A DNA stretch of 20,289 bases, taken from a virus. Position 1 is the first letter of the stretch, and each line of letters begins with the position of its first letter. Shown in pieces: positions 3,738 through 19,385 of this stretch. The stretch is taken from the IMG/VR virus record IMGVR_UViG_3300042923_000266, positions 1-20,289 of that record. One strand, written 5' to 3'. A program made the position numbers and the translations under genes. The notes under the pieces were generated by a model that was not told the origin of the DNA, did no database searches, and saw nothing but the letters and a program-made list of their open reading frames with translations.

Positions 3738-3768
3738 AAACGCGCTGTAATTCGCTCAGCGCGTTTTT
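3738..3768 (+). terminator. Intrinsic terminator after G
   Basis: A perfect 10-base-pair stem is formed by AAACGCGCTG (3738-3747) and CAGCGCGTTT (3757-3766) with a 9-base loop, running into five T residues (3764-3768). It lies nine bases after the G stop. It would end the transcript carrying terminase to G. Confidence 0.85.
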
Positions 3769-3819: not shown

Positions 3820-3877
3820 CGTTTTTAAAAAGGTTTTAAAAACGGTCTCCCGCATTGTTTCCGCTTAAATTGTTCCA
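3820..3877 (+). promoter_or_regulatory. Probable activator-dependent late promoter before I (Mu PI position)
   Basis: The 208 bases between G and I hold a perfect inverted repeat, CGTTTTTAAAA (3820-3830) and TTTTAAAAACG (3834-3844), separated by AGG. About 20 bases later comes TTAAAT (3865-3870), a fair -10 box with no good -35 at the right spacing. If that is the -10, transcription starts near 3877 and the dyad is centred near -45, where Mor/C-type activators bind at Mu middle and late promoters. Mu itself has late promoter PI at this gene junction. The dyad and -10 are seen; the role is inferred from position. Confidence 0.5.
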
Positions 3878-3884
3878 CGGCTAC

Positions 3885-3908
3885 CGCTGAACCCCCTCAG
3901 CCGCTCCC
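3885..3908 (+). repeat. 24-base intergenic motif, copy 1 (before I)
   Basis: This stretch begins CGCTGAA and ends CAGCCGCTCCC. It recurs at 15956-15979 with a single mismatch at its eighth base (C here, G there). It contains a small dyad, GCTGA - six bases - TCAGC. It lies 29 bases before the chosen start of I, a gene without a Shine-Dalgarno sequence. Confidence 0.75.
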
Positions 3909-3937
3909 GTTTACGTTCTCCCGTCATCATGCTGCGT

Positions 3938-5035
3938 ATGAAAACACGTATCGCGGCACTAGCCCTAGAAATCGCAAAAGCGACCCATAACGAGATCCAA
4001 CTGTTCCCGGCTGGCGAGTTCAGCGCGGTGGATGGCCGTCCGACCGACGTCGATGGCGGTAAATGGTTCCTGACGGCTGAACTGGCCGCCGCAATTGTTT
4101 CACAGGTGGCCTCCGTGACCACGCCGCTGGTGATTGATTACGAACACCAGACGCTGCGCACCGTGAACAACGGCCAGCCCGCTCCGGCGGCTGGCTGGTT
4201 CAGCAAGGTGGAATGGCGCGACGGCGATGGCCTTTATGCCGTCGGCGTGGAATGGACAGACAAAGCCGCCGCAATGATTGCTGCCGGTGAATACAAATAT
4301 ATTTCCCCGGTTTTCTTCTACGACAAAAGCGGCGCTGTCACCCAGCTGTTACACGCCGCACTCACAAATACCCCCGCGCTGGACGGGATGGACGCGGTCA
4401 TGCTGGCCGCAGCCAGCCGTCTGGCGAGCCTTTCAACTACAACGGAGACCACCACAGTGGATGAAGAACAATTAGCCATGCTACTGGCGCAGCTGCGCTG
4501 GCTGCTGAACCTGCCGGAGACCTCCACCCCGGAGGAAGTCTGCGCAGAGCTGCAAAAAATTATCGACGGCGTGTCCGGCGGTCAGGGAACTGCGGCGGCA
4601 TCCATCGGGCTGGGTAACTTGCTGGCTCAGCAGTCTGAGCAAATCGCCAGCCTGTCCGCTAACGCTTACAACCCGGAAAAACACTCCCCGATTGAAGTCG
4701 TTAACGACCTACGCGCTCAGCTGGCCCAGCTGTCCCAGACCACGACCGAAAGCGAAATCAGCACGCTGGTGACGGCTGCGCTCACGGATGGCCGTCTGCT
4801 GCCTTCACAGGAGCAATGGGCGAAGGATTACGGCAAGCAGAATCTGGCGGGCCTGTCGGCCTATCTGGAAAAGCAGCCACGTATCGCGGCCCTTAACCAG
4901 ACCCAGACCAAAACTTTCACCGCGCCTAAACCGGAAGACAAAGTCAACGTGTCTCAGATGACGCCGGAGCAGCTGGCTATCTGTAGCGCGTTCGGCAATG
5001 ACCCGGCAGAAATCGCCAAACAACTAGGGGACTGA
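3938..5035 (+). CDS. I: Prohead protease with C-terminal scaffold, Mu gpI-like
   Basis: The 365-residue product matches the Mu I protease: an N-terminal NEIQLFPAGEFSAVDGRP block, then VIDYEHQTL with the family histidine, and EYKYISPVFFYDKSG. The protease matures the head by cutting the scaffold and itself. The C-terminal half (from about residue 174) is helical and Gln/Ala-rich, as in the scaffold part. ATG codons occur at 3929 and 3938. I prefer 3938, because the family usually starts MKTRIAAL or similar, but neither has a Shine-Dalgarno sequence. The gene follows the possible late promoter and the 24-base motif. The stop is two bases before the next start. Confidence 0.85.
   Translation: MKTRIAALALEIAKATHNEIQLFPAGEFSAVDGRPTDVDGGKWFLTAELAAAIVSQVASVTTPLVIDYEHQTLRTVNNGQPAPAAGWFSKVEWRDGDGLYAVGVEWTDKAAAMIAAGEYKYISPVFFYDKSGAVTQLLHAALTNTPALDGMDAVMLAAASRLASLSTTTETTTVDEEQLAMLLAQLRWLLNLPETSTPEEVCAELQKIIDGVSGGQGTAAASIGLGNLLAQQSEQIASLSANAYNPEKHSPIEVVNDLRAQLAQLSQTTTESEISTLVTAALTDGRLLPSQEQWAKDYGKQNLAGLSAYLEKQPRIAALNQTQTKTFTAPKPEDKVNVSQMTPEQLAICSAFGNDPAEIAKQLGD
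4457..5035 (+). CDS. Z: Nested scaffold protein from an internal start in I (Mu gpZ-like), predicted
   Basis: Mu makes its scaffold Z from an internal in-frame start in I. Here a GTG at 4457 is in frame with I, with CGGAG at 4443-4447 nine bases before it. It begins the sequence VDEEQLAMLLAQLRWLL, just after a Ser/Thr-rich linker (SLSTTTETTT) that ends the protease domain. The product would have 192 residues, mostly helical, with no cysteine-rich or catalytic region. An ATG at 4478 (AMLLAQ) is an alternative start. The internal start is inferred from the linker position, the Shine-Dalgarno sequence and Mu precedent, not proved by sequence. Confidence 0.45.
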   Translation: MDEEQLAMLLAQLRWLLNLPETSTPEEVCAELQKIIDGVSGGQGTAAASIGLGNLLAQQSEQIASLSANAYNPEKHSPIEVVNDLRAQLAQLSQTTTESEISTLVTAALTDGRLLPSQEQWAKDYGKQNLAGLSAYLEKQPRIAALNQTQTKTFTAPKPEDKVNVSQMTPEQLAICSAFGNDPAEIAKQLGD

Positions 5036-15955: not shown

Positions 15956-15979
15956 CGCTGAAGCCCCTCAGCCGCTCCC
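15956..15979 (+). repeat. 24-base intergenic motif, copy 2 (before gp46)
   Basis: It begins CGCTGAA and ends CAGCCGCTCCC and matches 3885-3908 at 23 of 24 bases. It starts one base after the gp45 stop and lies 28 bases before the gp46 start. It contains the same small dyad, GCTGA - six bases - TCAGC. Confidence 0.75.
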
Positions 15980-15987
15980 CTCCATGC

Positions 15988-16010
15988 CATGCTGCCAGAC
16001 TGGCAGCATG
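15988..16010 (+). promoter_or_regulatory. Perfect hairpin enclosing the gp46 start codon
   Basis: CATGCTGCCA (15988-15997) and TGGCAGCATG (16001-16010) form a perfect 10-pair stem with a three-base loop. The last three bases of the 3' arm are the ATG of the gp46-like gene. No T run follows, so it is not an intrinsic terminator. It could limit translation of gp46. Confidence 0.6.
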
Positions 16011-16358
16011 GACCAGAATATTTCTACCGCTACCGGCGATTACACACAAACCCGCGTTTACTCACTACAGAACGCGGTTTATCTGCGCCTTGAAACCCCG
16101 CTCGGGAGCTACTGGGCGGATCCTCTCTTAGGGTCCCGGCTCCATGAGCTGAAGCGCGAGAAGGACGTCCCACGCGTTCAGCTGCTGGCGGGGCAATACT
16201 CCCGCCAGGCACTTCAGCCGCTGCTGGATGACGGACGGGCGCAGACCATCACCGTCGACACGGAAAAAGGTCCAACAGGCTGGCTTTTTCTCTGGATTCG
16301 CGTCACCGACGCCTCCGGGACGCCGCACAAGTTTAAACACCCTGTAAGGATTGCATAA
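16008..16358 (+). CDS. Baseplate wedge protein, Mu gp46-like (GP46 family)
   Basis: The 116-residue protein reads NISTATGDYTQTRVYSLQNA, then LETPLGSYWADPLLGSRLHE, the signature of the Mu gp46 family, which takes the place of the gp25-like wedge component in contractile baseplates. I chose ATG 16008 because family members start just before NIST; the earlier in-frame ATG at 15984 would add eight residues read from the hairpin. Neither start has a Shine-Dalgarno sequence, which is unusual here. The stop overlaps the gp47 start (TAATG). Position after the spike and before the J-like protein is the Mu order. Confidence 0.87.
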   Translation: MDQNISTATGDYTQTRVYSLQNAVYLRLETPLGSYWADPLLGSRLHELKREKDVPRVQLLAGQYSRQALQPLLDDGRAQTITVDTEKGPTGWLFLWIRVTDASGTPHKFKHPVRIA

Positions 16359-17997: not shown

Positions 17998-19385
17998 TGC
18001 AGGACTTAATGCCACCGGTAAACACACCGGATAAGTTGTTCCACGACGGCGACCCCACACAGGGTATCGAGGGGACTATCGTTACAGCGGAGTGGCTTAA
18101 TAATGACCAGTCAGCAGTCCGTGATGTACAGGGTGAATTAATTGCCGTTCTGGCAGAAGCAGCCATGACGCCCGACCCTGAAAAACAAGGACAGCTTATT
18201 GAAGCAATCAAGAAAATTGTGGGGGATGGTGTCAGTGACGGCGCTCTATTAAAGACAAATAATCTTTCCGATCTAGTTGATAACGCCCTGGCGCGGGAAC
18301 ACCTGCAACTTAAGGCCGCAGCAACAAAAGATGTCACTACGCAACATGATGATACTAACGGCGGGCGGTTAATGACGCTGGGGTGTCGTGGGATTGGTGG
18401 AGGTTCGGGAGATATGCTTCCGGGGGCTGATATAGACACAGCCGCTAAATATCTTAAGTTCTTAAAACCATATGGAGGCGGCATTTATCGGCCAATCTGG
18501 AATTCAGCAGTAACGAATCCTGATGGATTAACGAAATATTCAGTAAATTTCTTCGGTAACACTGGCGATACTTTCAGGCTAATTTCCATAGATTATAATA
18601 CCGGGAAAGTTATCGCAGTTGGTGCAAACCAGGCGGGGATTGATGCAGGCAAGGTCTATGTAAACGAATTGTATGGCAAGTTGAATAAACCTAATGCTGC
18701 GGATGTTGGGGCGCTACCCGCTGGAGGTGGGCGACTTACAGGAGTCTTAGAGATTTACAGCGTTGCGCCAATAATCCAACTGACTGAATCCGATACTGGT
18801 AAAAAATATTTCCTCGTTGCTGATGGCAGTGGTTTTCGCATCAATGAAGACTCCACTGGAGGGAACGCGGTGCTTTCATATGCTGGGGCGAGCAAGCAAC
18901 TAAAAACGGTTGGTCAGTTTGTGCCTGGGGACTTCGCTAACTTTGACGCCCGCTATCAGGCAAAAGGCAACTACACCCCCGCAGGACAAGCGTATACCAA
19001 AGCCGAGAGTGATGGTCGTTACCAGGTCAAAGGTAATTACACCCCCATCGGCACTGCATACACGAAAGCTGAATCTGACGCCCGCTACAGCCTTAAAAAC
19101 ACCGCCACCAAAGCCGCCAATGCAATGACCTCAAAAGATGCGTCAACAGGCGTTATGGAAGTGGTTATGAGCAATATCACCGTTGCGGCCAACACCAATG
19201 TAAGCGTCACTTTCAGCACCGCGTTTCCTTCGGTTTGCGTGGGGGTTGTCATCGCTTATGACGGGGCTGGACATGGTAACGACAGTGACTCTTCAATAGC
19301 TGTGGCGTCGTATACACGTACAGGCTGTGTGCTTCGTGCGAATAACGCTAACGGCAAATTCATGCTTATTGCAAAGGGGTATTAA
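17997..19385 (+). CDS. S: Tail fibre protein, Mu gpS-like
   Basis: The 462-residue fibre has a conserved N-terminal attachment part (residues 1-80: PVNTPDKLFHDGDPTQGIEG, VTAEWLNNDQ). A variable shaft follows, then two tandem 22-residue repeats of the YQ-KGNYTP-x5-YTKAESD type (residues about 320-363), then a C-terminal domain (about 380-462) resembling the gp53-like fibre tip with FSTAFPSVCVGVVIAYDGAG. The tip binds the host surface. From about 18200 the gene is clearly more AT-rich than its neighbours, suggesting that the shaft and tip were exchanged separately from the attachment part. It overlaps gp48 by one base and is followed after one base by U. Confidence 0.9.
   Translation: MQDLMPPVNTPDKLFHDGDPTQGIEGTIVTAEWLNNDQSAVRDVQGELIAVLAEAAMTPDPEKQGQLIEAIKKIVGDGVSDGALLKTNNLSDLVDNALAREHLQLKAAATKDVTTQHDDTNGGRLMTLGCRGIGGGSGDMLPGADIDTAAKYLKFLKPYGGGIYRPIWNSAVTNPDGLTKYSVNFFGNTGDTFRLISIDYNTGKVIAVGANQAGIDAGKVYVNELYGKLNKPNAADVGALPAGGGRLTGVLEIYSVAPIIQLTESDTGKKYFLVADGSGFRINEDSTGGNAVLSYAGASKQLKTVGQFVPGDFANFDARYQAKGNYTPAGQAYTKAESDGRYQVKGNYTPIGTAYTKAESDARYSLKNTATKAANAMTSKDASTGVMEVVMSNITVAANTNVSVTFSTAFPSVCVGVVIAYDGAGHGNDSDSSIAVASYTRTGCVLRANNANGKFMLIAKGY
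18954..19085 (+). repeat. Two tandem 66-base units in the fibre gene
   Basis: Units 18954-19019 and 19020-19085 each encode 22 residues with YQ-KGNYTP and YTKAESD, followed by a partial third start (YSLKN). The codons differ between units, so the duplication is old or under purifying selection. Such repeats form regular collar-like elements in fibre shafts. Confidence 0.8.

Follow-up and report, generated by a model that had tools for sequence, protein, structure and literature searches.

The window analyzed in this study is a 20,289-nucleotide virus record, a fragment that does not include the gene for the transcription activator discussed below. It carries gene I, which encodes a head maturation protease (Mu-like_Pro; 3938..5035; PF10123, 6.7e-104), and gp46, which encodes a baseplate wedge protein (16008..16358; PF07409, 6.1e-18; phrog_180, 5.7e-33). 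Both genes have a predicted leaderless start and lie on the + strand, as do the terminator, activator sites, -10 elements and hairpins described below. A 24-nucleotide motif precedes each of them (CGCTGAACCCCCTCAGCCGCTCCC at 3885-3908 and CGCTGAAGCCCCTCAGCCGCTCCC at 15956-15979). From a comparison of the two sequences, we find that they are identical at 23 of 24 bases, as an earlier note on this DNA had claimed, that each carries the core GCTGA-N6-TCAGC and has CATGCTGC on its 3′ side, and that 29 bases separate the motif from the ATG of I (3938) and 28 from that of gp46 (16008). No third copy occurs on either strand of the window with up to three mismatches allowed, and the number expected by chance is zero (100 dinucleotide shuffles). 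The earlier note had also reported that both genes lack a Shine-Dalgarno sequence, and this holds, as evident by duplex energies of +1.2 (I) and -0.9 kcal/mol (gp46); those of most neighbouring genes range from -5 to -12.6 kcal/mol. Alternative in-frame starts upstream, at 3929 for I and 15984 for gp46, were rejected because they are missing from several relatives. The ATG corresponding to 3938 is the sole I start in relatives such as L095 and L101.

Relatives of the window were gathered by protein searches, and blastn searches of both junctions against phage records returned almost no matches. Of the relatives found, the closest is a Buttiauxella MAG prophage, with 93-96% identity over the aligned parts. 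This 4.5-Mb genome carries three exact copies of GCTGAASCCCCTCAGC, which reside exclusively in the prophage; one precedes gp46, one precedes I and one precedes holin/peptidase lysis genes. Besides I and gp46, the motif thus marks a third place, ahead of lys. The lys copy in Buttiauxella comes shortly after a gene that matches a PHROG late transcriptional activator (2.8e-32), whose product scores 19 bits against the Pfam Mor model and so falls below the cut-off of 24.9. A Mor/C-family gene (PF08765) is located ahead of lys in relatives, and most complete relatives carry copies of the motif at lys, I and gp46, all on one strand. A fourth copy of the mom type was not found among these phages, where predicted promoters are seen at lys, I and, instead of P, gp46. 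A subgroup (L161, L162 and L167) carries two extra ACTGAAC..CTTC sites of Mor type before a C-like gene, where Mu has Pm. These sites are 42 bp apart, the first with a proper -10 (AATACT) and the second without one.

In phage Mu, the binding site of Mor is a 16-bp element at -51 to -36 in which a G/C-rich hexamer separates two 5-bp inverted repeats, and related dyads in Plys, PI, PP and Pmom are recognized by C (PMC4390567, PMC4287176). Both copies in the window contain a dyad of precisely this format, with a total length of 16 bp. The candidate site for a C activator (Mor/C family) at the predicted promoter of I, which we term P_I, is GCTGA-ACCCCC-TCAGC (3886..3901) and is kept upstream of I in relatives. 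Its counterpart at P_46, the predicted promoter of gp46, is GCTGA-AGCCCC-TCAGC (15957..15972), which spans -51..-36 relative to the ATG. Exactly 23 bp after each dyad lies a putative -10 element, CATCAT (3925..3930) for P_I and CAGACT (15996..16001) for P_46, and the same spacing is observed at the lys and middle-type promoters. These hexamers are poor, with 3-4 of 6 positions matched, and a consensus promoter scan of the window called no sigma-70 promoter at either site. An intrinsic terminator after gene G (3738..3766; 10-bp stem, T run, -15.1 kcal/mol, z -3.35) closes the upstream operon ahead of P_I, and we count it in favour of a promoter at I.

Transcription start sites were placed by assuming that the dyad spans -51 to -36, the position it has in Mu Pm. 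For gp46, the implied +1 coincides with the A of the ATG (16008) in the window and its close relatives. For I, it falls on the A of the ATG in one group of phages and one base 5′ of the ATG (3938) in the group to which the window belongs, and the I leader in the window may be 0 or 1 nucleotide long. From this architecture, P_I and P_46 are very probably late promoters of the C type, which is itself an already known kind of promoter. The motif is thus predicted to be a DNA activator site that lies outside the mRNA under its control. The earlier note had proposed a common control element acting at the translational or RNA level and linked to the absence of a Shine-Dalgarno sequence. Both the shared control and the link are retained here, but not the RNA level, because the motif is situated about 36-51 bp 5′ of the predicted start.

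The gap between G and I contains further features. A perfect AT-rich dyad, CGTTTTTAAAA-AGG-TTTTAAAAACG, is present at 3820-3844 between the G terminator and P_I and is conserved in close relatives. The strong gyrase site of Mu sits in the equivalent gap, and by analogy the AT-rich dyad may be its counterpart. In MP29 (L327) and D3112 (L328), anti-CRISPR genes occupy this gap, where they follow the end of G and precede the promoter region of I.

To describe I and gp46 starts across relatives, 200 upstream regions were reduced at 80% identity to 110, among which some relatedness remains and 100 have a usable ATG. Hexamers of the form xAxxxT peak at -12 (50/100) and -13 (30/100) in this non-redundant set, compared with about four per offset elsewhere, and CTGA is most often found at -50 (29 starts), -51 (17) and -52 (9). 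A -10-like hexamer directly precedes the ATG in 87 of the 100 starts, where four registers were allowed and about 20% would pass by chance. Shine-Dalgarno sequences are present at only 2 of these 87 starts versus 8 of the 13 that lack the -10 (Fisher p 3e-7). Moreover, a matrix built from lys and middle sites only yields a peak centred at -43.5 to -45.5 at the I and gp46 starts. Hosts represented in the set include Enterobacteriaceae, Burkholderia, Neisseria and Chromobacterium, and also desulfovibrios once the start is corrected. The gp46 orthologues of L200, L192 and L140 have a Shine-Dalgarno sequence and no promoter, indicating that the gp46 promoter has been gained or lost between phages. 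A similar layout is evident in MP29 of P. aeruginosa, where it suggests an I start at record position 18702 (L327:986), 126 nucleotides upstream of the annotated one. The upstream layout of D3112 is similar, but because an early stop interrupts that frame in the D3112 record, MP29 was used instead.

With a -10 about 6-7 nucleotides 5′ of the AUG and no Shine-Dalgarno sequence, I and gp46 have the layout of leaderless genes. Transcripts from P_I and P_46 would begin at the start codon or no more than one base away from it, and a probable mRNA 5′ end at the AUG would account for the lack of a Shine-Dalgarno sequence. We consider leaderless I and gp46 mRNAs likely on these grounds. Among open-licence papers, we found none that describes leaderless late transcripts of Mu-like phages. 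Leaderless mRNAs are usually weakly translated in E. coli-like hosts, and such weak translation would be surprising for a structural operon if it extended beyond the first gene.

A second element overlaps both start codons, with CATGCTGC forming the 5′ arm of a hairpin in each case. At gp46, an 11-bp hairpin (15987..16011; -20.4 kcal/mol, z -4.6) places the -10 around its loop and the AUG in its 3′ arm, and it co-varies between relatives. The structure predicted by RNA folding at I, UCAUGC-UGC-GUAUGA (3927..3941), includes the start codon but is small and weak, with 6 bp. Arm sequences differ among relatives while the pairing is kept, and when the 5′ arms were permuted 1000 times, no permutation reached the observed arm pairing in either I or gp46, each analyzed separately. 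Starts without a -10 exhibit no excess pairing in the same test. The stem is also absent from all 15 lys and middle-type promoters counted (0/15), from which a sixteenth listed sequence was set aside because it is an I promoter. A strong hairpin is found in part of the set, with a net stem of at least 6 centred on the -10 in 25 of 87 starts, and the stem register follows the -10. Therefore, an RNA-level layer may exist after all, in the hairpin rather than in the 24-mer. Should transcripts begin at the AUG, only read-through RNA from upstream could form the hairpin, which would mask the AUG in that RNA, and efficient gp46 translation would thus depend on the promoter of gp46 itself. We regard the odds that the hairpin serves as a block on translation of read-through RNA as evenly balanced.

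Several other explanations for these features need to be weighed. The dyad around the -10 might be a DNA feature that aids strand opening or binds a repressor, an alternative that concerns the hairpin alone. In many relatives this dyad has the -10 at its centre and its register tracks the -10 to within one base, as might be expected for such a role. However, it is missing (0/15) from lys and middle-type promoters that have the same activator site and spacing, its arms still pair despite wide sequence divergence, which speaks against recognition by a sequence-specific protein, and it often extends into the ATG. We find this alternative doubtful, although it is the most serious of those considered. 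It is less likely still that the promoters are C-dependent late promoters whose transcripts start further upstream, such that a short leader is made and the hairpin acts in the normal mRNA. The start is placed here from sequence only and the Mu P_I leader is about 26 nucleotides long (PMC4461284), both of which leave room for a leader. Yet the -10 hexamer is at -12 or -13 of the ATG in most relatives, the dyad is as far from the ATG as the Mu Pm arrangement would place it, and the resulting mRNA would still be devoid of a Shine-Dalgarno sequence and have its AUG locked in an 11-bp stem.

The proposal of the earlier note, that the motif is an RNA-level element in the I and gp46 leaders, such as a protein or sRNA site or a processing signal, now seems very unlikely. 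Although the dyad can form a 5-bp RNA hairpin, this site is also found ahead of lys-type genes with leaders, its spacing is fixed to the -10 rather than to the start codon, and the complementarity of the half-sites is lost in many relatives (GCTGAACACCCTCCAC). Half-sites that are not complementary are expected for a protein-DNA site and not for a stem, and an RNA stem formed by the 24-mer was ruled out as a candidate for this reason. Least credible is that the motif is a repeat dispersed in the genome or an element copied recently, although the 23/24 match between copies 12 kb apart might suggest it. The few copies in Buttiauxella are all at fixed prophage junctions, unlike the many host copies that the earlier note took as the sign of an unrelated repeat, and a REP-like dispersed repeat was rejected on this basis. 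The position is conserved across divergent phages, and recent copying is contradicted by the presence of the same site at both junctions in relatives whose I and gp46 proteins share only about 50-80% identity, and by the third copy at lys.

We therefore favour the reading in which a Mor/C-family late activator site serves P_I and P_46, the I and gp46 mRNAs are leaderless, and a hairpin masks the AUG in read-through RNA only, and we assign it a probability of roughly 0.8. An activator of the Mor/C family encoded by the phage itself would occupy the 16-bp dyad (about -51 to -36), replace the -35 element and turn on host sigma-70 RNA polymerase at the weak -10 located 23 bp downstream. RNA from P_I would supply the head operon, and RNA from P_46 the baseplate and tail-fibre operon. 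The sequences themselves show the site and its spacing, its conservation, the activator gene nearby, the Shine-Dalgarno contrast and the co-variation of the hairpin, and from these we infer that C binds, where transcription starts, that translation is leaderless and what the hairpin does. Whether many proteobacterial Mu-like phages carry leaderless, Mor/C-driven I and gp46 operons with a fast-evolving hairpin that ties translation of the first gene to promoter firing is, in our estimate, an even bet. If so, the choice of transcription start would act as a translational switch. A design that is both leaderless and hairpin-masked was not found in the open-licence literature.

The analysis extends the Mu late promoter system to many phages from sequence alone, and provides a searchable signature for late promoters and for correcting gene starts, as with I of MP29. 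It also predicts that phages of Gram-negative hosts make structural proteins from leaderless mRNA, which is usually deemed a minor mode in such hosts. Promoter and start codon would share a single module of 50 bp, which may also contain its own block on read-through RNA.

Like Mu Pm, Plys, PI, PP and Pmom, the promoters described here combine the dyad format with a weak -10 and no -35, and in relatives a Mor/C activator gene is likewise found just before lys, with promoters at lys and I. They differ from those of Mu in dyad sequence and in the location of the second structural promoter, which is at gp46 rather than in N ahead of P. The mRNA of lambda cI is a leaderless transcript with a -10 that adjoins the open reading frame. 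In Mu, PI initiates about 26 nucleotides before the I ATG with AGCAGG between them, and PP is inside N (PMC4461284). Leaders at lys and I of Mu are about 24-26 nucleotides long, as approximated from oligonucleotides whose stated end is 20 nucleotides past the start (PMC4461284), versus the 0-1 nucleotide predicted here for I and gp46. Leaderless mRNAs of Deinococcus-Thermus likewise have a -10 about 6-7 nucleotides before the AUG and no Shine-Dalgarno sequence (PMC12340547), whereas those proposed here are tied to a phage late activator and serve virion structural operons. The closest parallel for the hairpin is provided by T4 genes e, soc and 49, whose starts are masked by a hairpin that, for e, is overcome by late promoters that open the start (PMC3014915). 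By analogy with e, the initiation region would be hidden in read-through RNA, and the late promoter would lie within the 5′ arm such that late RNA is made without that arm. This is the layout seen at gp46 (15987-16011), where the hairpin contains the AUG and its 5′ arm is upstream of the predicted late start. In T4, however, the late RNA of gene e retains its ribosome-binding site, whereas here the RNA would begin at the AUG.
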